A stretch of DNA of 64,000 nucleotides from Microbacterium capsulatum (GTDB taxonomy: Bacteria; Actinomycetota; Actinomycetes; Actinomycetales; Microbacteriaceae), in the NCBI RefSeq assembly GCF_030865425.1, contig NZ_JAVFCB010000006.1, forward strand, positions 124,001-188,000. Direction: 5' to 3'. Numbering within the stretch: the stretch's first letter is position 1; each line of letters starts with the position of its first letter. The notes below the pieces were generated by a model. It saw nothing but the letters and a program-made list of their open reading frames with translations, did no database searches and was not told the origin of the DNA. Made by a program: the position numbers and the translations under genes. Shown here one piece after another: positions 54,186 to 64,000 of this stretch.

Positions 54186-54352
54186 CGGGCCGCCTCCTCG
54201 GCGAGCACACGCGCGGCGTCCCGGCGGAACGCCGGCAGACCGGCGCGAAGATCCTCGATCGCGGAGGCCACGGCCGCCTCATCCTGATCGGCGAGCATCT
54301 CGCCGATCAGGGTCCGCACGAGCGCCCGATCCCGCGCATCCAGACCCGTCAT
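54182..54352 (-). CDS. Small 56-residue protein coupled to amidase (possible AtzG/GatC-like partner)
   Basis: This short gene runs from the ATG at 54352 to the TGA at 54182 and encodes MTGLDARDRALVRTLIGEML followed by ADQDEAAVASAIEDLRAGLP and a tail ending AEEAAR. Both ends overlap the neighbours by ATGA, which argues that it is real. The protein is acidic, Ala-rich and predicted helical. A small protein directly before an amidase recalls AtzG, the GatC-like subunit that AtzE needs for folding. I cannot claim homology from sight, only a matching context, size and helical character. Confidence 0.6.
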   Translation of the reverse strand: MTGLDARDRALVRTLIGEMLADQDEAAVASAIEDLRAGLPAFRRDAARVLAEEAAR

Positions 54353-55716
54353 GCGTGCACTCCCGCGAGGACCTGCCCGTGCCGCACGACGTCCTCGCCG
54401 CCGACCAGGACCGCGCGCACGTCGCGCAGATCGTCCCGGCGCGCGATCACGACATCGGCGGGAGCGCCGCGGCGGAGCATCGCGCCGCCGTCGACGAGCC
54501 CGGGGATGAGCGCGGCGGGAACCGAGGTGGCCATCTCCACGGCCTGCGCGAGCGTGCGGTGCCCGGCGTCGATGAGGTCCTGCACGCCCGCGATGAGCGG
54601 GTCGTGCCGGCCGTCGTGGCCGTAGTCGGTGGCGAGCACGTCGACCAGGCCGGGCGCCGAAAGAAGCGCGTCCCAGTGCTCCCGGGTGCGCACCGTCTCG
54701 CGCCCCTCGAGCAGGTCGAAGACGCTGGCCTCACCGTGCCATCCGGCGTCCCGCCCGGCCTCGGCCAGCCGCATGGCCTCCTCGACCGTGTGCGAGGTGT
54801 GGTTCACATGCCCGGCGATCACGGTCCCGCGCGCCCGGGGAAGAGACAGGAGGCTCCGGATCAGGTCCGCCGAGGCGGCGGCCGAATGCACGAGCGCGGG
54901 CACGCCGAACCGCACCGCGGCCTCGATGCCTTCGCGGATCCCGTCCCTGGCGTGCCCCACCGAGGGCATCACCGTGCCGACCACGAGGGCGCGGAGCTCG
55001 TCCCGCGGGACGTCGCCGAGGCCCGCCTCCGCCGCCCGCGCCGCGAACAGCTCCGCGTCGCCCGAGCCCTCGTCCATGAATCGGCCGAGCACGGCCTCCT
55101 TGAGCCCCCTGGCCTGCTCCTGCGTGACCGTTCGCCCCGTGAGCCTGCGGATCGCCGCCGGAAGGTAGACGAGATCCTGCCCGCCCCCGCCCAGGGTCTG
55201 CCCTCCGCCGAGTTCGCCGATCGCGACCGCGCCGTCCTCGAGCATGCGCTCGACGGTCGACGCGCGATGCGCGGGGCCGAGCCCCGCGCCGTCGGCGGCG
55301 AGGGCCGCGGCGAGCGCCCCCGGCGTGTGCGCCGTCGCGCCTCGCACGTGCACGGCGTGCCGGCGGTCCGCTTCGCGGATCTCCGCCATCGTGCCGAGCC
55401 CGCAGGTGCTGAGCACCGTTGTCGTGCCCGCCGCGAGGTGGCGATCGAGATGGCCGAGCCAGCGCTCCTCGGGAAGCGCGGCGGCGCCGCTCGGGAACAG
55501 CGGAGACGGGCTCACTCCGTGCGTGTGGATGTTCACGAGGCCGGGGATCACGGCGCAGTCGGGCACGTCCACGATCCGTCCGGCGAACGGCTCCCCGGCG
55601 GTGCGCGCACCCAGCACATCGAGGATGCGCCCGTTCTCGATGACGACGCCGCCGTTCTCCACGGTCCTCCCGCCCGTCGCGGGAACCACCACCCCGGCTC
55701 GGATCAGCGTCCTCAT
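54349..55716 (-). CDS. Enamidase-like metal-dependent amidohydrolase
   Basis: A 455-residue amidohydrolase. The first metal site is PGLVNIHTHGVSPS (HTH, about residues 60-62). The middle holds VHSAAASADLI and VIAGHVNHTSHTVEEA with further His residues, and the catalytic Asp in DVLATDYGHDGRHDP. N- and C-terminal strands form the usual composite sandwich (ending ADVVIARRDDLRDVRAVLVG). It resembles enamidase/dihydroorotase-type enzymes that open cyclic amides or imides. The ATG at 55716 follows AGGAAG. It is the first gene of the amidase unit, behind the shared operator box at 55755-55783. Confidence 0.88.
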   Translation of the reverse strand: MRTLIRAGVVVPATGGRTVENGGVVIENGRILDVLGARTAGEPFAGRIVDVPDCAVIPGLVNIHTHGVSPSPLFPSGAAALPEERWLGHLDRHLAAGTTTVLSTCGLGTMAEIREADRRHAVHVRGATAHTPGALAAALAADGAGLGPAHRASTVERMLEDGAVAIGELGGGQTLGGGGQDLVYLPAAIRRLTGRTVTQEQARGLKEAVLGRFMDEGSGDAELFAARAAEAGLGDVPRDELRALVVGTVMPSVGHARDGIREGIEAAVRFGVPALVHSAAASADLIRSLLSLPRARGTVIAGHVNHTSHTVEEAMRLAEAGRDAGWHGEASVFDLLEGRETVRTREHWDALLSAPGLVDVLATDYGHDGRHDPLIAGVQDLIDAGHRTLAQAVEMATSVPAALIPGLVDGGAMLRRGAPADVVIARRDDLRDVRAVLVGGEDVVRHGQVLAGVHA

Positions 55717-55754
55717 CGCGCTTCCTCTCGACGCCGGCCTCTTCACCGGATAGA

Positions 55755-55795: not shown

Positions 55796-56689
55796 ATGAC
55801 GGCCTTCCCCCTCCCCCGGGATCTCCGCGGCTACGGCGAGACCCCGCCGGACGTGCGCTGGCCCGGCGGCGCCCGGGTCGCGGTGTCCCTCGTCGTGAAC
55901 ATCGAGGACGGCGCGGAGCGGAGCGTCGCCCGCGGCGGCGTCGCCGACGACCTCGGCGGGCACTGGATGCAGCACCGGGCGCTCCCCGGCCAGCGCAACC
56001 TCGACCTGGAGTCCGCGTTCGAGTACGGCGCGCGCAGCGGCATCTGGCGCGTGCTGCGCACCCTGCGCCGTCACGACGCCAAGGCCACGGCCTTCTGCTG
56101 CGCGACCGCGCTCGAGGCGAACCCCGCGATCGCCGAGGCGCTCGCACGGGACGGGCATGAGATCGCCGATCACGGCCTGGGCTGGGACGCGCACTCGCAG
56201 CTCGCCCCCGAGGTCGAGGCCGACCTCATGCACCGCTCCCGCACGATCATCGAGGACCTCACCGGCGCCCGTCCGACGACCTGGTATTCGCGGGACGGCC
56301 TCACCCTGCACTCCCGGAGCGCGATGATCGACGAGGGGTTCGGCTACGACTCGAACAGCTTCGACGACGACCTGCCGCACCCCGGCGCCGACGGTCTGCC
56401 GCTGCTCGTGATCCCCTACGCGGGCGACACGAACGACTCGGCCCTGCTCTCCCAGTACCCGACGGCCGACGCGTTCGCCTCGTTCCTCTGCGGCGCACTG
56501 GAGATGCTGCAGACCGAGGGCCGGCACGGTCCGTCGGTGCTGAGCGTCGGCCTGCACCCGCGGATCATCGGGCGGCCTGCCTACATCGGCGCGCTGGACG
56601 CCTTCCTCGACCGCGCCGCGGAGGCCGAGGCCTGGATCGCCACACGCCAGGAGATCGCCGACGCCTGGCAGGCGGTCACCGCCGTCTGA
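55796..56689 (+). CDS. PuuE-like polysaccharide deacetylase-family hydrolase 1
   Basis: A 297-residue NodB/PuuE-type protein. It has VRWPGGARVAVSLVVNIEDG, the acidic motif NIEDGAE, GHEIADHGLGWDAHS with a His and WYSRDGLTLHSRSAM; the ending LSVGLHPRIIGRPAYIGALD is diagnostic for the PuuE/allantoinase-like branch. These act on cyclic ureides such as allantoin or related amides. AGGAGG lies just before the ATG. It is the only rightward gene in this part of the region, divergent from the amidohydrolase, and paralogous to the gene at 59339-60262. Confidence 0.9.
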   Translation: MTAFPLPRDLRGYGETPPDVRWPGGARVAVSLVVNIEDGAERSVARGGVADDLGGHWMQHRALPGQRNLDLESAFEYGARSGIWRVLRTLRRHDAKATAFCCATALEANPAIAEALARDGHEIADHGLGWDAHSQLAPEVEADLMHRSRTIIEDLTGARPTTWYSRDGLTLHSRSAMIDEGFGYDSNSFDDDLPHPGADGLPLLVIPYAGDTNDSALLSQYPTADAFASFLCGALEMLQTEGRHGPSVLSVGLHPRIIGRPAYIGALDAFLDRAAEAEAWIATRQEIADAWQAVTAV

Positions 56690-56695
56690 GGCGGA

Positions 56696-57481
56696 TCACG
56701 CCTGCAGCAGCGCGCCCCACCCGGCGATCGGGCGCGCTGCGCCGGCGAGGCGCAGCAACTGCCACAGCGTCGCGGTCGCACTGTCGATCACGGGAACCCC
56801 GAACTCGGCCTCGAACGCGCTGACGCGGTACGCCGAGCGCAGGTTCGTCCCGATGCACACGACGCCGTCGACGTCGCCCTGGAACGCCGGGCGCAGGAGG
56901 GCGTCGATCCAGTCCTCGCCGACCCGGGCGATCTCCGCATTGGCGAGCTCGACCTCGGGGGCGGAGATCACCGGCATCGCCACGCCGTCGGCGGCGTACT
57001 GCACGGCGATCTGCTCGGCGATCGGGCGCGGACCGGGGAAGACCAGCCCCACCCGGCGCAGGCCGAGCGCGTCGAGGGCGGCACGCACGGCGAGCGTCGC
57101 GGTCGTCGCGGGAGCACCCACGACCACCTCCAGCTGCGCGCACAGCTCGCGCTCGCCCGCGAACCCGGTCCAGGATCCGGAGGTCCCGTGGAAGGCGATC
57201 GCGTCGGGCTCGACGTCGGCGAGCATCGCCGGGGCGTCCCCGAGCACGCCGGCGTCGATGCGGTCGCCCAGGTCGGGCGGCAGCCGGAACCGGCTGAAGT
57301 GCGCTGCCACGTCGGCCTCGCCGGCCAGCATCCGCAGAATCGAGGACTCGGCGTTGGAGTTCGACGACGGGACGAGCACGCCCAGGCGGCGCCGAGGCCC
57401 GGGCGCCGAGCCGGTCGGCCGCTCGACGGCCGCAGCGGCAGTCGCGGGCGCAGCGCCCGTGGTCACGGCGTCAGTGCGCAC
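56696..57481 (-). CDS. Asp/Glu racemase-superfamily protein, arylmalonate-decarboxylase-like site
   Basis: A 261-residue protein of the maleate isomerase / arylmalonate decarboxylase (AMDase) group, with RRLGVLVPSSNSNAESSILR near the N-terminus. Maleate isomerases and racemases carry two catalytic Cys. Here the first position reads HGTSGSW (Gly99-Thr100-Ser101) with no Cys, while the second Cys is kept in VVCIGTNLRSAYR (Cys209). This Gly/Cys pattern is that of AMDase. The protein may therefore decarboxylate or isomerise by a one-Cys mechanism. The first 11 bases overlap the XRE-cupin gene. Confidence 0.85.
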   Translation of the reverse strand: MRTDAVTTGAAPATAAAAVERPTGSAPGPRRRLGVLVPSSNSNAESSILRMLAGEADVAAHFSRFRLPPDLGDRIDAGVLGDAPAMLADVEPDAIAFHGTSGSWTGFAGERELCAQLEVVVGAPATTATLAVRAALDALGLRRVGLVFPGPRPIAEQIAVQYAADGVAMPVISAPEVELANAEIARVGEDWIDALLRPAFQGDVDGVVCIGTNLRSAYRVSAFEAEFGVPVIDSATATLWQLLRLAGAARPIAGWGALLQA

Positions 57482-58088
57482 GGCCGAGCGACGGCGGCGT
57501 CGAGATGGCGAGCATCACGGCGGCGGATCCCGTGCGGTTGCTCCACCAGTGCGGCAGGGACGCGTCGTAGGTGAGGCTGTCGCCGGCCTCGAGCTCGACC
57601 TCACGGCCCGCCACCGAGGCGACCAGGCTTCCGGCCGTGACCAGCACGCACTCCTCGCCCTCGTGGGAGTGCGGAGTGCTCGCACCCTCGAAGCTGGCCG
57701 GGATCGTCATGCTCACGACACCGAGTTTGCGCTCGGAGTCGGGAACGATGAGCTCCATGATGATGCCCTGCGACGGGATCTCCATGCGCCGGCGGTCCGC
57801 ACGGCGCACCACCATGTGGTCGCTGCCGACGACCGGATCCGCGAACATGCTCGCCAGCGGCAGGTCGAGGGAGCTCGCCAGGCGCAGCAGCGTCGCGAAC
57901 GACGGATTGCCGATTCCGCGCTCGATCTGACTGATGAGGCCCGCGCTGACGCCGGCGCGCTCCGCCAGCTCCTCCACCGTGAACCGCCCGGTGCGCTGCT
58001 CGCGCAGCTGCGCTCCGAGATGAGCGATCCAGAAGTCGCGGTCGAGTCCCTCGTCCGCCGTCTTCGCTGCTGCTGCCGTGCCGTCCAC
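57471..58088 (-). CDS. XRE-cupin transcriptional regulator (PuuR-like)
   Basis: A 205-residue regulator with an N-terminal HTH_3 (FTVEELAERAGVSAGLISQI, about residues 36-55) and a C-terminal cupin (HSHEGEECVLVTAGSLVASV, then GDSLTYDASLPHWWSNR). The GTG at 58088 is preferred for the GAAGAAGGA site upstream; a TAGAAT -10-like box lies at 58128 to 58123. It is the only local regulator in this region of amide-related enzymes and the likely reader of the shared operator blocks at 55755 and 60325. Confidence 0.9.
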   Translation of the reverse strand: MDGTAAAAKTADEGLDRDFWIAHLGAQLREQRTGRFTVEELAERAGVSAGLISQIERGIGNPSFATLLRLASSLDLPLASMFADPVVGSDHMVVRRADRRRMEIPSQGIIMELIVPDSERKLGVVSMTIPASFEGASTPHSHEGEECVLVTAGSLVASVAGREVELEAGDSLTYDASLPHWWSNRTGSAAVMLAISTPPSLGRAH

Positions 58089-58203
58089 AGGCCGTCCTTC
58101 TTCGTTCGCTTGGAGGAGCGTCATTCTATCCGCCCGCGGGTCCATTCTCGTCCGCACCATCGTCATCCCCCGGAGATCCGTGTGCAGGTTCCGCGTGTCC
58201 CGG

Positions 58204-58935
58204 TCATCGGCCCGCGGGCCCGTGTGGGCCCTCGCCCGCCTCGTGCAGGGTGCGCAGGGTCAGGGCGACCTCGCGCTCCCAGTAGATCGCCGCGCGATCG
58301 GCGCCACGGGAGTGCACGTCGCCTGCCCGGGCCGCACTGGGCGCCGGCATGCCGATGCGATGCCCCGCGCCCGCCACGGCGTCGATGATGCGCTGCACCG
58401 CCGCGTCCACGGACTCGTCCCGCCCGTGCCGCTGCAGGTCGTCGACGAGATCGGTCGGCCCGATCCACCCGCCCTGGAACAGCGGGTGCCGGACGAACTC
58501 GTCGACGCCGTCCAACGCGTCCACGGTCTCGAACAGCACGGAGAGCACCGGGACGTGCTCGTACCGGGTGCCGTAGCGGGACGCCGGCGACACCTGACGC
58601 GGCCGCTCGCCGACCGGCGGGAAGCGGGTCGCGCGATGCGCGGCCTCCAGCTCGGCCGTCGTGCGCACACGGGGAAGTACGAGCTCGTCCACCCCGGTGT
58701 TCGCGAAGGTGAGCAGGCAGTCGGCCTCGAGCGAGGGCACCCGCACGCCGACGGCGACCCCGCTGCCGCGAAGCCGGTGCACCGCCTCGGCGCACTGAGC
58801 CGGTCCCAGCCCGGTCTGCTCGGCATCGATCACGATCGACCCGATGCCGACGACCTCGAGGAGTCCCAGCAGCGTCGGCGTCGGATCCGCGGTGATGAGC
58901 CCGACCTCGGGACGGCGGGCGGTCTGCGCGCTCAT
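58204..58935 (-). CDS. HpcH/HpaI-like aldolase-family protein lacking the catalytic His
   Basis: A 243-residue TIM-barrel protein of the HpcH/HpaI group. Metal and substrate residues are kept: Arg65 in GVRVPSLEAD, Glu136 in FETVDALDGV and Asp162 in GWIGPTDLVDDL. The general-base His normally found in DxEH is replaced by Gln40 (VIDAEQTG). Either the enzyme uses a different base or it has changed chemistry, for example as a lyase or dehydratase. The ATG at 58935 overlaps the cupin stop by four bases. Confidence 0.82.
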   Translation of the reverse strand: MSAQTARRPEVGLITADPTPTLLGLLEVVGIGSIVIDAEQTGLGPAQCAEAVHRLRGSGVAVGVRVPSLEADCLLTFANTGVDELVLPRVRTTAELEAAHRATRFPPVGERPRQVSPASRYGTRYEHVPVLSVLFETVDALDGVDEFVRHPLFQGGWIGPTDLVDDLQRHGRDESVDAAVQRIIDAVAGAGHRIGMPAPSAARAGDVHSRGADRAAIYWEREVALTLRTLHEAGEGPHGPAGR

Positions 58936-59342
58936 TCGTCCGACACGAATTCCCAGTCGGCGGGCTTGCTCATCCCGACCACGAGCTCGACGTTCTCGTC
59001 GGTGTCGTTCGTGATGCCGTGGCTCGTGCCCCGCGGGATGTAGATGCCGTCCCCCGGCCGGGCGCGGTAGTCGCTGCCGTCCAGGTGCACGAGCGGCGTG
59101 CCCGCGATCACGACATAGAACTCCGACGCATCCGGATGGTGGTGGCAGAGGTGGTGCTGACCGGGCAGGATCCGGCCGAGGCTCACGTTGAGGTCGTCGG
59201 ACCCGCTGAGGTCCCGCGAGATCAGGTTGCACACCTGCCCCTGATCCTGTTGCCCCTTCAGCCCGGTCTTCGCGAGGTCGGAGAATCCGATGTCGTGCGC
59301 GTTGTGCACGAGACGGTCGAGATCGGCCGGCGGACGGCTCAT
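58932..59342 (-). CDS. Small cupin protein
   Basis: A 136-residue single-domain cupin. The metal-binding motif 1 is HHHPDASEFYVVIAG and motif 2 PGDGIYIPRGTSHGI, so the His/Glu/His ligands are complete. The final residues are polar. Such cupins are isomerases, dioxygenases or decarboxylases; no reaction is assigned. It overlaps the deacetylase 2 stop (ATGA) and the HpcH-like gene start, in a three-gene coupled unit. Confidence 0.88.
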   Translation of the reverse strand: MSRPPADLDRLVHNAHDIGFSDLAKTGLKGQQDQGQVCNLISRDLSGSDDLNVSLGRILPGQHHLCHHHPDASEFYVVIAGTPLVHLDGSDYRARPGDGIYIPRGTSHGITNDTDENVELVVGMSKPADWEFVSDE

Positions 59343-60262
59343 CGGCTCGCCCCTTCCATCTCGGTCGCGGGCGCGGTCGCCGGCGCGTTCTGCAGCCACC
59401 AGCGCGCGATCTCCTCGCGGGTTCCGAACCAGACGCCCTGCTGAGCCTGGGCGTACTCGATGAAGCGGCGCACCGCCATCGCGACGCTCGGCCGGCCGCC
59501 GATGCGCAGGTGGACGCCCACCGACATCATCCGAGGCACTTCGTCGGCCTCGAGCAGCAGGCAGTCCAGGGAGTCCTTGAGCACGGAGAAGAAGTCGTCG
59601 GGGCTGCCCAGACTGCCCGTGCCCCAGAACCTCGCGTCGTTCGTGTCGCCCGCGTAGGGCACGACGAGGTGCGGCCCCTCGGCGGTGTCGACGTAGTACG
59701 GGAGGTCGTCGGAGTACGAGTTCGAGTCGTACAGGAAGCCCTCCTGCACGAGCACGGCCCTGGTCTCCTCGGTGATGCCCTCGCGGACGTACCAGCCGGA
59801 CGGGCGGACGCCCGCGGTCTGCTCGATCGCGGCGACGCAGCGGCGGATCTCGGCACGCTGCTCCTCCGCCGTCATCCCGACCAGGCCCTGCCATTTGTAG
59901 CCGTGCCCGCAGATCTCGTGGCCGTCGCGGGCGATGGCCTTGGCGGCCTCGGGATTGCGCTCGAGCGCGATGCCGCAGGCCATGACCGTGGAACGGACGC
60001 CGTACTCCCGGAACAGGCCGAGGTAGCGCCAGATGCCGACGCGGCTGCCGTACTCGAAGAAGGACTCCTTCATGAGGCTGCGCCGGGTCGGATCCGCCGA
60101 CCAGCCGCCGAAGATCGAGATGTCCTCGTCCCGTGCGTCGCCCGCCTCGATCGAACTCTCGGCCCCCTCCTCGAAGTTGAGCACGAGCGACACCGCGACG
60201 CGCGCGTCGCCGGGCCAGCCGACGACCGGCGGATGCTCTCCATAGCCGATGAGATCACGCAT
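59339..60262 (-). CDS. PuuE-like polysaccharide deacetylase-family hydrolase 2
   Basis: A 307-residue PuuE-type protein paralogous to 55796-56689, with VVGWPGDARVAVSLVLNFEE, FEEGAES, DGHEICGHGYKWQ and SVGVHLRIGGRPSVAMAVRR. It keeps the acidic and His residues of the family. The first gene of a leftward coupled unit (deacetylase 2, cupin, HpcH-like), it sits behind the shared -10/operator block at 60325-60354. Like its paralog it probably hydrolyses a ring amide or ureide; the two copies may differ in substrate or act as a heteromer. Confidence 0.9.
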   Translation of the reverse strand: MRDLIGYGEHPPVVGWPGDARVAVSLVLNFEEGAESSIEAGDARDEDISIFGGWSADPTRRSLMKESFFEYGSRVGIWRYLGLFREYGVRSTVMACGIALERNPEAAKAIARDGHEICGHGYKWQGLVGMTAEEQRAEIRRCVAAIEQTAGVRPSGWYVREGITEETRAVLVQEGFLYDSNSYSDDLPYYVDTAEGPHLVVPYAGDTNDARFWGTGSLGSPDDFFSVLKDSLDCLLLEADEVPRMMSVGVHLRIGGRPSVAMAVRRFIEYAQAQQGVWFGTREEIARWWLQNAPATAPATEMEGASR

Positions 60263-60361: not shown

Positions 60362-61174
60362 CTAGCCGACGGCGCTTCCCTGATACACCGCGCGGTGCGC
60401 GGCGAGCGAGGTGCGCAGCATCCCGTCGACGTCGTCGATGACGTTGCCGTGCGCGGGGCCGATGAACGACGTCGGATGGGAGTCCAGGATCCGCTCGATC
60501 GCCGTGAACGCATCGCTCACGTCCACGAACTTGGTCCAGTACAGGGCCCGTCCCGTGCCGTACGCGGCCTGCGCCACGCTCGGCGGCTCCGGCATCTCGC
60601 CGGAGAAGAGCCGGCACTGCCCCGGACGGTGCACGGGCTCGTCCTCGTCGTCGGGGCCCGGGACGTCATGGATGAAGGAGAAGCCGTCCGAGACGAACAG
60701 CACCCCGGCCCCCGAATCCCATGCCCACGTCGTGTTCTCCAGATCGCGGATGTGCGCGGGCAGGAGCTCGAGCTCGCGCCCGCCGAGGTCGATCGACTCG
60801 CCCGCCGCGAGCGGGCGCAGCCGGTGCGCATGCTCGGGGAAGTGCAGGTGGTAGTCGCGCGTCTCTCCGACCACCACGGCGTCCGGATAGCGCTCCAGCA
60901 GGGCGGGCAGATTGCCCGCGTGCGGGATCTCCGGGTGGGTCGGGACCAGGTAGTCGAGCGGACGCCCGGCGAGCGCCTCCTCCAGCTGGGCGAGCACCAC
61001 CGCGCGGTGCGCGGGGTCCCCCGTGTCGACGAGGGCGGTGCGCTCCTGCCCGATCACCAGGTATGCGTTGACGTGGTAGTGCACCTCCTCGCCGTGGCCG
61101 AAGGCGGACAGGCATCCGCCGAGCCAGAACACGCCGTCGGCGATCCGCCGGGCGCTCTCGAATGCGGTGCTCAT
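60362..61174 (-). CDS. Flavodiiron-type metallo-beta-lactamase protein, ligand-bearing member of pair 1
   Basis: A 270-residue MBL-fold protein resembling the oxygen-reductase domain of flavodiiron proteins (ODP family) rather than classical HxHxDH hydrolases. Metal ligands: His80, Glu82 and His85 in THPEIPHAGN, His141 in LPAHIRDLENTTWAW, Asp163 in LFVSDGFSF and His242 in GPAHGNVI. The flavodiiron Asp before the second His is Pro here. There is no flavodoxin domain. It overlaps the stop of the ligand-poor partner (ATGA). The reaction may be a diiron oxygen chemistry or hydrolysis; it is not assigned. Confidence 0.85.
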   Translation of the reverse strand: MSTAFESARRIADGVFWLGGCLSAFGHGEEVHYHVNAYLVIGQERTALVDTGDPAHRAVVLAQLEEALAGRPLDYLVPTHPEIPHAGNLPALLERYPDAVVVGETRDYHLHFPEHAHRLRPLAAGESIDLGGRELELLPAHIRDLENTTWAWDSGAGVLFVSDGFSFIHDVPGPDDEDEPVHRPGQCRLFSGEMPEPPSVAQAAYGTGRALYWTKFVDVSDAFTAIERILDSHPTSFIGPAHGNVIDDVDGMLRTSLAAHRAVYQGSAVG

Positions 61175-61875
61175 GCGATCCCGATCCTCTCGATCTCGTC
61201 CGCGACCGCCCGCGTCGCGGACGGCACCTCGTCCTCCGTGAACGGGCGGCCGTATCCGGGCCCGAGCGTGCGGATCCCGCGCTCGCCGACCACCGTGCGC
61301 ACGTGCGCCGCGATCGGCCGGGTGTCGGCGAGCGTGAACCAGCGGAACTTGCTCAGCCCGTCCGCGGGGGCGGCGTCGCCGTGCGTGAATGCGTCCGAGG
61401 TGAGCAGCCAGCCGGTGTCCGGCTCGTGCACCCACAGCGTCGGCAGCAGCCGCAGCAGGGGCGAGATCAGCTCGATCCTCATGCCCGGATAGGGCTCGAT
61501 CCACTGCGCCGTCCCCGGTTCGACGCTCACGCGACGCACCTCGGCGGTGCTGCGCGGCACGGTGATGCCTCCGGTGTACCAGACCGCGTCGAGGCCGAAG
61601 CGCTCCTCGATCGCGGGCAGGTTCAGGCAGCACTCCATCTCGGTGCGGGTCAACAGCACCGAGAGCGGCGTCCCGTCCTCGAGCAGCGCGTCCAGGCCCT
61701 CCAGCACCGCGGTCTCGTGCACGCGCAGGCCCGTGTCGACGAGCAGGGCGCCGTGCGCACCGCGGATCAGATAGCAGTTCACCGGCTGCGTGGTGCGCGT
61801 GCCGGGAGGGCACCAGCTCACCCGCTCGTCGAGGTCGATCTCCCCGCCCAGGCGGTGGATGCTCGTGATTGACAT
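61171..61875 (-). CDS. Flavodiiron-type metallo-beta-lactamase protein, ligand-poor member of pair 1
   Basis: A 234-residue MBL-fold protein related to its neighbour but with lost metal ligands. The THPEIPHAGN motif reads TRTEMECCLN (His to Arg77 and Cys82, Glu79 kept), the middle His is absent from SPLLRLLPTLW, the Asp is kept in LTSDAFTHG, and the last His is Tyr in GPGYGRPF. It is probably not able to bind two irons in the usual way. Translational coupling to the ligand-bearing protein suggests a structural or regulatory subunit of a heteromer. It is homologous to the gene at 63434-64000. Confidence 0.82.
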   Translation of the reverse strand: MSITSIHRLGGEIDLDERVSWCPPGTRTTQPVNCYLIRGAHGALLVDTGLRVHETAVLEGLDALLEDGTPLSVLLTRTEMECCLNLPAIEERFGLDAVWYTGGITVPRSTAEVRRVSVEPGTAQWIEPYPGMRIELISPLLRLLPTLWVHEPDTGWLLTSDAFTHGDAAPADGLSKFRWFTLADTRPIAAHVRTVVGERGIRTLGPGYGRPFTEDEVPSATRAVADEIERIGIA

Positions 61876-61895
61876 CCCGGTGCCCCCAGCCCGCC

Positions 61896-62567
61896 TCAGC
61901 GGGTGGCGCCTTCCCAGACGGAGATGGCCTCGTCCAGCGAGCAGTGATCGTGCCGCGCGCGCATCACGGTGAGCGCCGCGTCGTGCACGGTCTCGTCGTA
62001 GGCGCCGACGGCGTCGTCGAGGAGGACCGCGTAGAAGTCGTTGGAGCCCGCGTCGCGCAGCGTCGCCTCGACGCAGCCGCCCGTGGAGACGCCCACGATC
62101 GCGACCGACTCGATGCCCTGGCTGCGCAGCAGCAGCGCGAGCTCGGTGCCGACGAAGGCGCTCTGCCGGCGCTTGCGGATGACGACCTCGTCACCCTCCG
62201 GAGCGCAGGACTCGGTGAACTCGGTGAGCGGGTCGCCCTTCGCGCTGAGCCGGCCGAGGTCGGTGGAGCGGCCGTGGCCCACCGTGTAGAGCGCGCGCAG
62301 CCACGCCGCCGTGGAGCTCTTGCCGTCGGGAAGGTTCTCCACGCAGATGTGGAAGACGGGCACGCCGTTCTCGCGTGCAGCTCGGATCGCCCTCGCGCAC
62401 TGATCCACGATGCGCGGCATCATGCTCATGTCGTGACCGGAGTCGGCGATCGCGCCGCCCTTCGAGACCGCGCCCTTCTGCATGTCGATCACGACGAGCG
62501 CGGTCGAAGTCGGGTCGAGCAGCTCGGCGAACGTGTCGCGCACCTGCTTGCCGCAGATCTCGATCAT
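61896..62567 (-). CDS. Isochorismatase-like hydrolase
   Basis: A 223-residue cysteine hydrolase of the isochorismatase/nicotinamidase superfamily. The Asp of the catalytic triad is in ALVVIDMQKGAV, the Lys in VIRKRRQSAFVGTEL and the Cys in GVSTGGCVEATLRDAGS. Family members include maleamate amidase, biuret hydrolase and ureidoacrylate hydrolase, so hydrolysis of an amide product is likely. It lies 20 bases after MBL pair 1's first gene start and 37 bases after the MBL pair 2 stop, i.e. between the two pairs. Confidence 0.93.
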   Translation of the reverse strand: MIEICGKQVRDTFAELLDPTSTALVVIDMQKGAVSKGGAIADSGHDMSMMPRIVDQCARAIRAARENGVPVFHICVENLPDGKSSTAAWLRALYTVGHGRSTDLGRLSAKGDPLTEFTESCAPEGDEVVIRKRRQSAFVGTELALLLRSQGIESVAIVGVSTGGCVEATLRDAGSNDFYAVLLDDAVGAYDETVHDAALTVMRARHDHCSLDEAISVWEGATR

Positions 62568-62604
62568 GGGATTCTCCTTTCAGCCCCGCGACGGGGCGGG
62601 TTCG

Positions 62605-63423
62605 TCAGTAGCGGTAGGCCTGCTTGTGACCTGCGCGGATGATGGGCTCGACGTCGCGGACGTTCGTGATGACGTTCCCGTGGGTGGGAGCGACGAGCTC
62701 GACACCGAGCTCGTCGACCAGCGCGAGCACACGGTCGTAGACCTGGTCGGCGTCGTCGTTGAAGCGCGCCCAGTACAGTGCGCTCCCGGTGAAGAAAGCG
62801 GCGTTCTCCACCGCGATCGGCGTGGACAGCTCGTCCGTGGTGAGCGCGCACTCCCCCGGAAGGTGCAGCGGATCCTCGTCATCCAGCTCTGGACGATGCA
62901 TGTAGCAGAACCCGTCGGCGGTGAAGAGGACCTTCTCCCGTCGGGCGAACGCCCACTGCGTGTTCGGAAGGTCGCGGATCATCGCCTCGACGATGAGGAC
63001 CTCCTGGCCACCGCCCAGATCGATCACGTCCCCGGGGACCCGCGAGTGCAGGTTGGGCACGATCTGCGGATAGAACAGGTGGTAGTCGTGCATGTCGCCG
63101 ACGACCTGGACATCGGGGTACTTCTCGACGAGTCGAGGCAGGTTCCCGGTGTGCGGAAGCTCGGGATGCGTCGGGAAGACGTAGGTGAGCGGCTCGTCGC
63201 CGAGCAGTTCGTCGAGCTTGGCGGAGATCGTGGTCCAGCTCGACGGGTTGCCCGTGTCGACGATCATCGAGCTCTCACTGCCCTTGATCACATAGGCCGA
63301 GTTGTGGCCGTGGATGACGCGGTCGGCGAGGTGGAACGGCAGGCACGCACCCATCCAGAAGACGCCGTCCCGGATCTCCCGCGGAAACTCGGCCGCCATC
63401 GTCTCGGTGATGATGTTCTCCAT
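62605..63423 (-). CDS. Flavodiiron-type metallo-beta-lactamase protein, ligand-bearing member of pair 2
   Basis: A 272-residue paralog of 60362-61174. It keeps His86, Glu88 and His91 in THPELPHTGN, Asp170 in LFTADGFCY and His247 in APTHGNVITN. The middle His is replaced by Met (EAMIRDLPNT), so the metal set is less complete than in pair 1. AGGAG precedes the ATG at 63423; an upstream frame to 63594 is a shadow of the neighbour. It follows the ligand-poor partner gene after 10 bases. Confidence 0.85.
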   Translation of the reverse strand: MENIITETMAAEFPREIRDGVFWMGACLPFHLADRVIHGHNSAYVIKGSESSMIVDTGNPSSWTTISAKLDELLGDEPLTYVFPTHPELPHTGNLPRLVEKYPDVQVVGDMHDYHLFYPQIVPNLHSRVPGDVIDLGGGQEVLIVEAMIRDLPNTQWAFARREKVLFTADGFCYMHRPELDDEDPLHLPGECALTTDELSTPIAVENAAFFTGSALYWARFNDDADQVYDRVLALVDELGVELVAPTHGNVITNVRDVEPIIRAGHKQAYRY

Positions 63424-63433
63424 GCGAGGTCTC

Positions 63434-64000
63434 CTATGCGGCGTCGTCGGCCAGAGCGGCCAGCATGAGGTCGAGGTGGTGGCGGACGCTGGCGCGTCCG
63501 CGGATGACGGATCCGCGCGAAGGCGCGATGATCTCAGGATCGAAACGGTCGAAGGTCTCCACGAGCCAGTCGCGCAGCGGATGCTTGGTCGCACGCGGCA
63601 GCCACTCGTACTTGGCGAACAGGTGCGCCGCGACCTGCTCGGGCGTCGTGTCGTCCTCGACGGATCCGTCGATCACCCGCGGGCCGTCAGGCCGCTCCAT
63701 CACGCCGTGCGTGAAGGTGTCGGAGGTGAACAGCGCACCGGTCTTGCCATCCCACCCCCAGAAGGTGGGCAGGAGACGCAGCAGAGGCGATTGCACGTCG
63801 AGGATCCGCCCCGGAGCGATCTCGATGCTCATCGAGCGCTCGAGGGCATCCCCCTCGACGGTACGGGTGCCGTCGATCTGCTCGCGGCGGCCGCGCAGCG
63901 CGAACCGGCTGACGTCGTCGAACGCGTCGAAAGGATTGATCACGCCACCGGTGAAGAGACGGAGGATGTCGAAGCGGCGGGAGATCGGCTCGAGGTTGGA
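63434..64000 (-). CDS. Flavodiiron-type metallo-beta-lactamase protein, ligand-poor member of pair 2 (5' end beyond window)
   Basis: The frame is open from the window edge to the stop at 63434 (about 188 residues visible, starting SNLEPISRRFDILRLFTGGV), so the N-terminal part is missing. It is homologous to 61171-61875: both share SPLLRLLPT and the TSD-FTHG step (here FTSDTFTHGV). The last metal His is replaced by Arg in APSRGSVI. The internal GTG at 63943 is not the true start. Together with 62605-63423 it forms the second tandem pair. Confidence 0.8.
   Translation of the reverse strand, partial: SNLEPISRRFDILRLFTGGVINPFDAFDDVSRFALRGRREQIDGTRTVEGDALERSMSIEIAPGRILDVQSPLLRLLPTFWGWDGKTGALFTSDTFTHGVMERPDGPRVIDGSVEDDTTPEQVAAHLFAKYEWLPRATKHPLRDWLVETFDRFDPEIIAPSRGSVIRGRASVRHHLDLMLAALADDAA

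Follow-up and report, generated by a model that had tools for sequence, protein, structure and literature searches.

Adjacent pairs of flavodiiron-type metallo-beta-lactamase proteins as a probable two-part enzyme in Microbacterium

The 64-kb stretch of Microbacterium capsulatum DNA analysed here (the window; positions 124001-188000 of contig C14 in a 4.0-Mb genome) carries two tandem pairs of genes, A1/B1 and A2/B2, all on the minus strand. In each pair, B encodes a flavodiiron-like metallo-beta-lactamase (MBL) protein which keeps metal ligands, and A encodes a paralogue stripped of them. In the direction of transcription A1 and B1 come first, an isochorismatase-family gene separates them from A2 and B2, and genes for a PuuE-like protein, a cupin and an aldolase-family protein follow, ahead of a regulator and more hydrolase-like genes (Table 1). 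The reading frames of A2 and B2 share an ATGA overlap, and 10 bases separate A1 from B1. The full A1 gene encodes 274 amino acids and lies at 187434-188258 of contig C14, with its start outside the window. Each pair is probably one two-part enzyme for small-molecule breakdown which has not been described before; no paper on such a pair in a catabolic gene row was found with the terms used in the titles and abstract openings of the open-access literature.

Table 1. The two gene pairs and their surroundings, in window positions.
Feature	Position	Strand	Description	Evidence
B2 (P0001)	60362..61174	-	Flavodiiron-like MBL protein, 270 aa; HxExPH...D...D...HG plus conserved extra His/Cys	profile, predicted structure, alignment
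A2 (P0002)	61171..61875	-	Ligand-stripped paralogue, 234 aa; R-x-E...R...D...Y	profile, predicted structure, alignment
Isochorismatase-family hydrolase	61896..62567	-	Lies between the pairs; closest to the models for biuret amidohydrolase and RutB, scores far under cut-offs	
B1 (P0003)	62605..63423	-	Flavodiiron-like MBL protein, 272 aa; HxExPH...D...D...HG	profile, alignment
A1 (P0004)	63434..64000	-	Ligand-stripped paralogue, 3' part in window	
PuuE-like protein	59339..60262	-	Polysaccharide-deacetylase family, first gene downstream of B2; TIGR03212 under cut-off	
Cupin protein	58935..59348	-	Same gene row	
HpcH/HpaI aldolase family protein	58207..58932	-	Same gene row	
HTH-cupin transcription regulator	57471..58166	-		
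Arylmalonate decarboxylase / EutA-type protein	56696..57481	-	Asp/Glu racemase superfamily	
Amidohydrolase-family protein	54349..55746	-		

Profiles and predicted models place both A and B in the flavodiiron-type MBL fold, without a flavodoxin domain. A profile of B searched against the sequences of the PDB finds flavodiiron proteins (best E-value 3.8e-23), and a profile of A finds ODP and flavodiiron proteins with an ODP protein on top (best E-value 3.9e-11). The two profiles match each other with an E-value of 3.7e-27 across 214 columns in hhalign. Single chains of A2 and B2 were predicted with pLDDT of 93 and 89, respectively, and the 25 best matches of each model among solved structures are all flavodiiron or ODP proteins. 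For A2 these have Z of 19.3-22.3 and root-mean-square deviations of 2.7-3.4 over 205-221 residues; for B2, Z of 20.3-28.3 and deviations of 2.6-3.4 over 225-248 residues. Ordinary MBL proteins rank after them, at Z 19.1 for A and 19.9 for B, so that for A the margin amounts to a tie (19.3 vs 19.1). An earlier note on this DNA, made from its sequence, had taken the stripped proteins to share the fold of their partners, and they do fall in the flavodiiron/ODP branch and not in a different fold. The search against the ODP family (PF19583) which it had proposed gives a mixed result: P0001 scores 31.9 bits against a cut-off of 27.2, P0003 stays under the cut-off, and neither A protein matches; in the Pfam scan the A proteins match the general MBL family only, below its cut-off. 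No flavodoxin (FMN) domain appears in the Pfam scan, and all four proteins stop after the MBL domain, at 234-274 amino acids. A2, the shortest, is below the length of most of its relatives.

The flavodiiron domain holds two irons with the motif HxExDH and with His, Asp and His further on. The conservation counts below cover 102 A and 105 B proteins and omit pieces shorter than 500 bases or with a best score under 140 bits; the A proteins of three loci (L043, L046 and L055, 116-128 bits) and the broken B copies of two (L034 and L071) were left out. The residue numbers 79-226 used for both families follow flavodiiron-style numbering. The HxExxH motif, the central Asp and the late HG of the ligand-bearing members had been read correctly in the earlier note, as had the gene positions: B2 and B1 have THPEIPH and THPELPH, an Asp in SDGF and ADGF, and the late HG. 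Aligned to solved flavodiiron proteins, the His, Glu, His, Asp and late His of B fall on ligand positions, and B departs at two ligands, where Pro replaces the Asp of HxExDH and Asp replaces the fifth-ligand His. The idea that these members are of the flavodiiron diiron type is thus not supported as it stood, and a diiron site of that type is not established. His79, Glu81, His84, Asp146 and Asp165 are each present in all 105 B proteins, Pro83 in 104, and His226 in 104 with one gap; five further His/Cys positions are conserved in 105, 105, 105, 105 and 104. B therefore fails the flavodiiron set HxExDH...H...D...H at the Pro (104/105) and at the fifth-ligand Asp (105/105), and A is stripped further. 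HxExDH is kept by 10 of 11 weak B-profile matches taken from other genomes, seven of which were provisionally called flavodiiron proteins by motif and length. The HxHxDH motif of canonical MBL hydrolases is absent from B, which has HxExPH in its stead. The altered set (His, Asp/Glu, Pro, His, Asp, Asp, His) is also found in nine related pairs, on six haloarchaeal plasmids, in one Paracoccus record and in two sampled genomes, where both members have it (18/18 proteins), and this speaks for a working site.

In the stripped proteins, the residues at or beside the ligand His positions are Arg, Cys, Arg and Tyr in A2, and Arg, Cys, Arg and Arg in A1. The Arg/Cys/Tyr/Arg that had been noted at these positions thus fits A2, and A1 matches it in three of four. 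The residues of this pocket are nearly invariant: Arg79 and Asp165 occur in all 102 A proteins, as do two Trp, Glu81 in 101, and a second Arg in 100, with Lys in the other two. Position 84 holds Ser or Cys in 100 of 102, and position 226 is Tyr in 66, Arg in 19 and His in 15. Two alignments, A3 and A4, hold 70 and 69 proteins hand-picked for spread; in alignment A4, R77, E79, W148, D161 and W179 are invariant, even in the low-scoring A proteins of L043, L046 and L055. Judged by these sequences, A is not decayed. Against five loci, dN/dS is 0.11-0.44 for A1 and A2 and 0.07-0.23 for B1 and B2, with A2 (0.16-0.44) having the highest values among the six genes in the comparison. Purifying selection acts on A, most weakly on A2. 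The stripped partner had been proposed as structural, and the conserved pocket indicates that it is more than filler.

B occurs almost always with A. A scan with the B profile, over one genome per species for 84,980 species, gave 73 loci, with 80 of 135 confirmed stretches kept. Three loci (L010, L016 and L017) were removed as copies of L033, L041 and L048, whose contigs have identical lengths. The loci come from Microbacterium, Arthrobacter, Sinomonas, Amycolatopsis, Rhodococcus, Bradyrhizobium, other Alphaproteobacteria, Betaproteobacteria, metagenome-assembled genomes (MAGs) assigned to Nitrospinota and Gemmatimonas/Gemmatimonadota, and others. A is present with B in 71 of the 73, which are not all independent, since several are from close relatives or from one contig. 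In the two exceptions (L063 and L078) the contig stops 509 and 260 bases before B, so that an upstream A would fall off the contig. The gene order is A-B in 43 loci, A-B-A-B in 14 and B-A in 12, with broken B copies in 2, and in L058 the gap between A and B is about 2 kb. The broken copies, L034:14043-14760 in an Arthrobacter genome and L071:4761-5504 in a Rhizobiales MAG, may reflect sequencing error or loss.

The association was also seen from the side of A. With the A profile at an E-value of 1e-8, 20 carrier genomes yielded 27 A genes and 26 B-type neighbours and no others. In 633 sampled genomes, of which the best 7 or 8 first-look candidates each were scored, strong A and strong B matches occur in the identical 20 genomes, 23 of each, all adjacent. 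The samples were not picked for pair content, except for known carriers, one at the centre of the first sample and three, including the window's genome, in the second. In the first, from one alphaproteobacterial order, 18 A and 18 B proteins above 200 bits lie in the same 17 of 297 genomes, and a looser pair (about 100 bits) occurs in 2 of the 297; in the second, actinobacterial sample, 5 A and 5 B above 200 bits lie in the same 3 of 336, all of these strong matches being adjacent. Among strong matches there was no lone A and no lone B apart from the two loci at contig ends, so that the refuting outcome named in the earlier note, stripped proteins which never stand next to ligand-bearing ones elsewhere, did not arise. 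The unit is patchy, since A is present in 2 of 299 genomes of the window's own family and in none of five other listed genomes of the genus. A search of plasmid proteins returned 14 records, 12 of which were opened; the second family gene adjoins the first in all 11 annotated records, four of which are A-B pairs, and the twelfth has no gene table. One observation concerns a Rhodococcus genome (L039:9175-10738) and a 721-kb Rhodococcus rhodochrous plasmid (L195:5160-6807), which carry near-alike A-B pairs with IS5 copies nearby, and this suggests mobility.

In a careful tree of 66 rows, A forms one clade (100/99) and B another (98/100), with longer branches for A; a quick tree of 68 rows gave 99 and 89, with long-branch warnings. 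Tree labels follow coordinates, so that L002_B1 is P0001 and L002_A1 is P0002, the reverse of the gene names B2 and A2. The pair families separate (100/100) from the HxExDH flavodiiron proteins of one alphaproteobacterial order, in a tree without Flv proteins. A and B each divide into matching pair-1 and pair-2 groups, which shows that the pair was duplicated as a unit, as had been proposed. Two pairs stand side by side in 15 loci, including the window's, all actinobacterial; A1 and A2 are 32% identical, and B1 and B2 41%. Distances among A proteins correlate with those among B proteins at 0.966 over 84 pairs, against a maximum of 0.096 in 1000 permutations, although shared descent inflates the value. 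In the careful tree, the first member of the Paracoccus-type pair forms the clade closest to A (92/91), and related pairs keep the altered ligand set in both members; for these reasons A probably lost its ligands when it was already paired. Topology tests rejected neither a single ancient duplication (p 0.193) nor a separate haloarchaeal (p 0.117) or Paracoccus-type duplication (p 0.127). A third pair type in alphaproteobacteria (L189:7724-9363, L190:8109-9829 and L198:4917-6523) has HTELPH and the other ligands in both members, and is a possible ancestral state.

The surroundings share a common thread of small-molecule uptake and breakdown, with no one pathway. Across 88 loci, for which the seeds were drawn from the same loci, some loci overlap and close Actinobacteria are over-represented, the neighbours include TctC receptors in 32, PuuE-like proteins in 26, EutA-type proteins in 17, isochorismatases in 16 and luciferase-like monooxygenases in 11. 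The 16 isochorismatase loci are the window's genome and 15 actinobacterial ones. The neighbours of the window's pairs include several C-N hydrolase families. Judged by their sequences, a second PuuE-like gene of the polysaccharide-deacetylase type lies at 55796-56689 of the window, on the opposite strand to the first, and a sulfatase-like gene (L002:4424-6748) lies immediately upstream of A1 on the same strand, with transporter genes divergent. In six small low-GC genomes (1.0-1.6 Mb, local GC 0.33-0.38; L180, L181, L182, L183, L184 and L191) the pair is accompanied by PuuE-like, cyclase-family and histidinol-dehydrogenase-like genes, and in L180 genes for a 2OG-Fe(II) oxygenase and a CoA-transferase are nearby as well. 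The haloarchaeal plasmid pairs (L193, L196, L199, L200, L201 and L202) adjoin TctABC in three cases, TRAP genes in one, and acetate-CoA ligase with CoA-ester lyase in two. Immediately upstream of one of them (L199:3329-5463) are genes for a Rieske (2Fe-2S) protein and an amidohydrolase, a hint of a redox role there.

Several known systems resemble the pair in part. ODP proteins (PF19583) from T. maritima and T. denticola consist of a flavodiiron-type MBL domain of about 250 residues in their PDB entries, a length like that of A and B, but by the PDB titles they are chemotaxis sensors, whereas A and B are paired catabolic genes. CPSF73/CPSF100 and INTS11/INTS9 are eukaryotic RNA nucleases in which one member is inactive; these combinations of an active and a degenerate MBL subunit resemble A and B as an idea. 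The closest precedent is Flv1/Flv3 and Flv2/Flv4 of cyanobacteria, which have paralogous flavodiiron MBL domains, a canonical and a non-canonical member, and two pairs per organism, as here (PMC4390876, PMC6616624). The Flv2/Flv4 heterodimer was seen on native gels, and the Flv1/Flv3 heterodimer was deduced from mutants (PMC4390876). The Flv proteins, however, include a flavodoxin and a flavin-reductase domain and function in O2 reduction or photoprotection, whereas A and B have neither domain and lie in catabolic gene rows, and B, unlike the canonical Flv member, is itself altered. By this analogy A and B resemble the paired Flv proteins in design, and probably not in chemistry. A canonical flavodiiron protein was rejected as an identity, and the families were not filed as flavodiiron proteins, because the two defining features, the ligand set and the flavodoxin domain, are missing. 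The acesulfame sulfatase of Bosea is an MBL-fold hydrolase serving as a catabolic step; its ligands are H61, H63, D65, H66, H172 and H251 (canonical HxHxDH), distant relatives are annotated as RNase Z, and the cluster table has a single MBL gene (PMC10413263). With this canonical motif it is no close relative, and it was rejected as a functional guide.

From the sequences, we lean slightly towards each pair being one heteromeric enzyme, in which B would be a metal-dependent, probably hydrolytic subunit and A a pseudoenzyme subunit. The sequences show a common fold and ancestry, pairing that is almost invariable, conserved residues, purifying selection on A and duplication of whole pairs; from these we infer that the two form a complex, that B binds metal, and what the reaction and the role of the arginines of A would be. 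Two paralogous flavodiiron-type MBL domains would assemble as A:B or A2B2, and B would hold the metal in a rearranged flavodiiron site of His, Glu, His, Asp, Asp and His. The reaction would probably be a hydrolysis that depends on the metal, or else a related step without redox chemistry, with a small acid or an amide intermediate as the substrate; hydrolysis is favoured because there is no electron-transfer domain and because C-N hydrolase families surround the window's pairs. In A, two acidic residues and two arginines fill the old metal pocket, where they would probably form a cage of salt bridges or a patch that binds anions; A would stabilise B and may help substrate binding.

A number of results weigh against this reading. 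Canonical MBL hydrolases use the Asp which B lacks, and this weakens a plain hydrolase assignment. Redox genes lie by some pairs, including Rieske, ferredoxin, FAD oxidoreductase, flavin reductase, LLM oxidoreductase and flavoprotein monooxygenase genes, as well as FMN oxidoreductases, dioxygenases and a molybdenum dehydrogenase; they count against hydrolysis and keep an oxygen-type reaction in play. One shared pathway drawn from the neighbours was rejected, as the families vary by clade. The placement of the second Arg of A is unstable, falling on the ligand His when the profile is aligned to flavodiiron proteins and one column off the Asp of B in hhalign and the joint alignment, and at the off-by-one placement four A proteins have Val or Leu. 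Fusions of A with B number 0 among 104 neighbouring A/B combinations (counting inter-pair neighbours and three copied loci), and fusion was dropped as evidence of contact. For pairs with a divergence above 40%, the five nearest neighbours of A and of B concur in just 168 of 420 cases.

The redox neighbours lead to a different picture, in which the pair is a diiron unit that reacts with oxygen or NO (an oxidase, an oxygenase or an ODP-like sensor) and draws its electrons from another protein, either a flavoprotein or one with an iron-sulfur cluster. The nearest fold and sequence are indeed those of flavodiiron and ODP proteins, luciferase-like flavin monooxygenases occur in the 11 loci counted above, the Rieske gene stands immediately upstream of one haloarchaeal pair and an FAD oxidoreductase gene right before another, and two plasmid loci have a flavin reductase and a ferredoxin. 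The missing flavodoxin domain, however, argues against classical O2 reduction, the fifth ligand is altered in every B protein counted, and the seven scanned window neighbours include no flavin or ferredoxin partner, so we regard such a unit as unlikely. It seems slightly less likely again that A binds a ligand or acts as a regulator in its own right, co-expressed with B but in no stable complex with it. The conserved, Arg- and Trp-rich pocket does look like a binding site, and both gene orders exist, but the shared fold, the matching trees and the unbroken adjacency better fit a complex, and Flv2/Flv4 provide a known heterodimer of this design (PMC4390876). The reading of A as a duplicate in decay that B carries along would agree with the faster evolution of A (longer branches, and dN/dS up to 0.44 for A2) and with the short A2. 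It is very improbable, however: A is retained with B in all loci but the two at contig ends, across Actinomycetota, Pseudomonadota and Nitrospinota and Gemmatimonadota MAGs, and both the pocket residues, at 100-102 of 102, and the selection on A rule against it.

A bolder version of the heteromeric enzyme, which we consider improbable as a whole, would have the two subunits share an active site, with the rearranged metal centre from B and an anionic substrate held in the Arg/Arg/Glu/Asp/Trp pocket of A. Ancestral pairs with ligands in both members would then survive in haloarchaea and Paracoccus, and the two-subunit enzyme class formed by the pairs would extend over several phyla of bacteria and the haloarchaea.

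Four plasmid A-B pairs are annotated, with B as an MBL fold metallo-hydrolase and A as a hypothetical protein, so that a conserved unit of two genes passes for a single hydrolase. The series that leads from both-metal pairs to one-metal pairs amounts to a natural experiment in which a metal site has been swapped for other charged residues in a retained subunit. If the pair is one enzyme, expression of B by itself would not succeed, and a testable step would be added to several catabolic gene rows.

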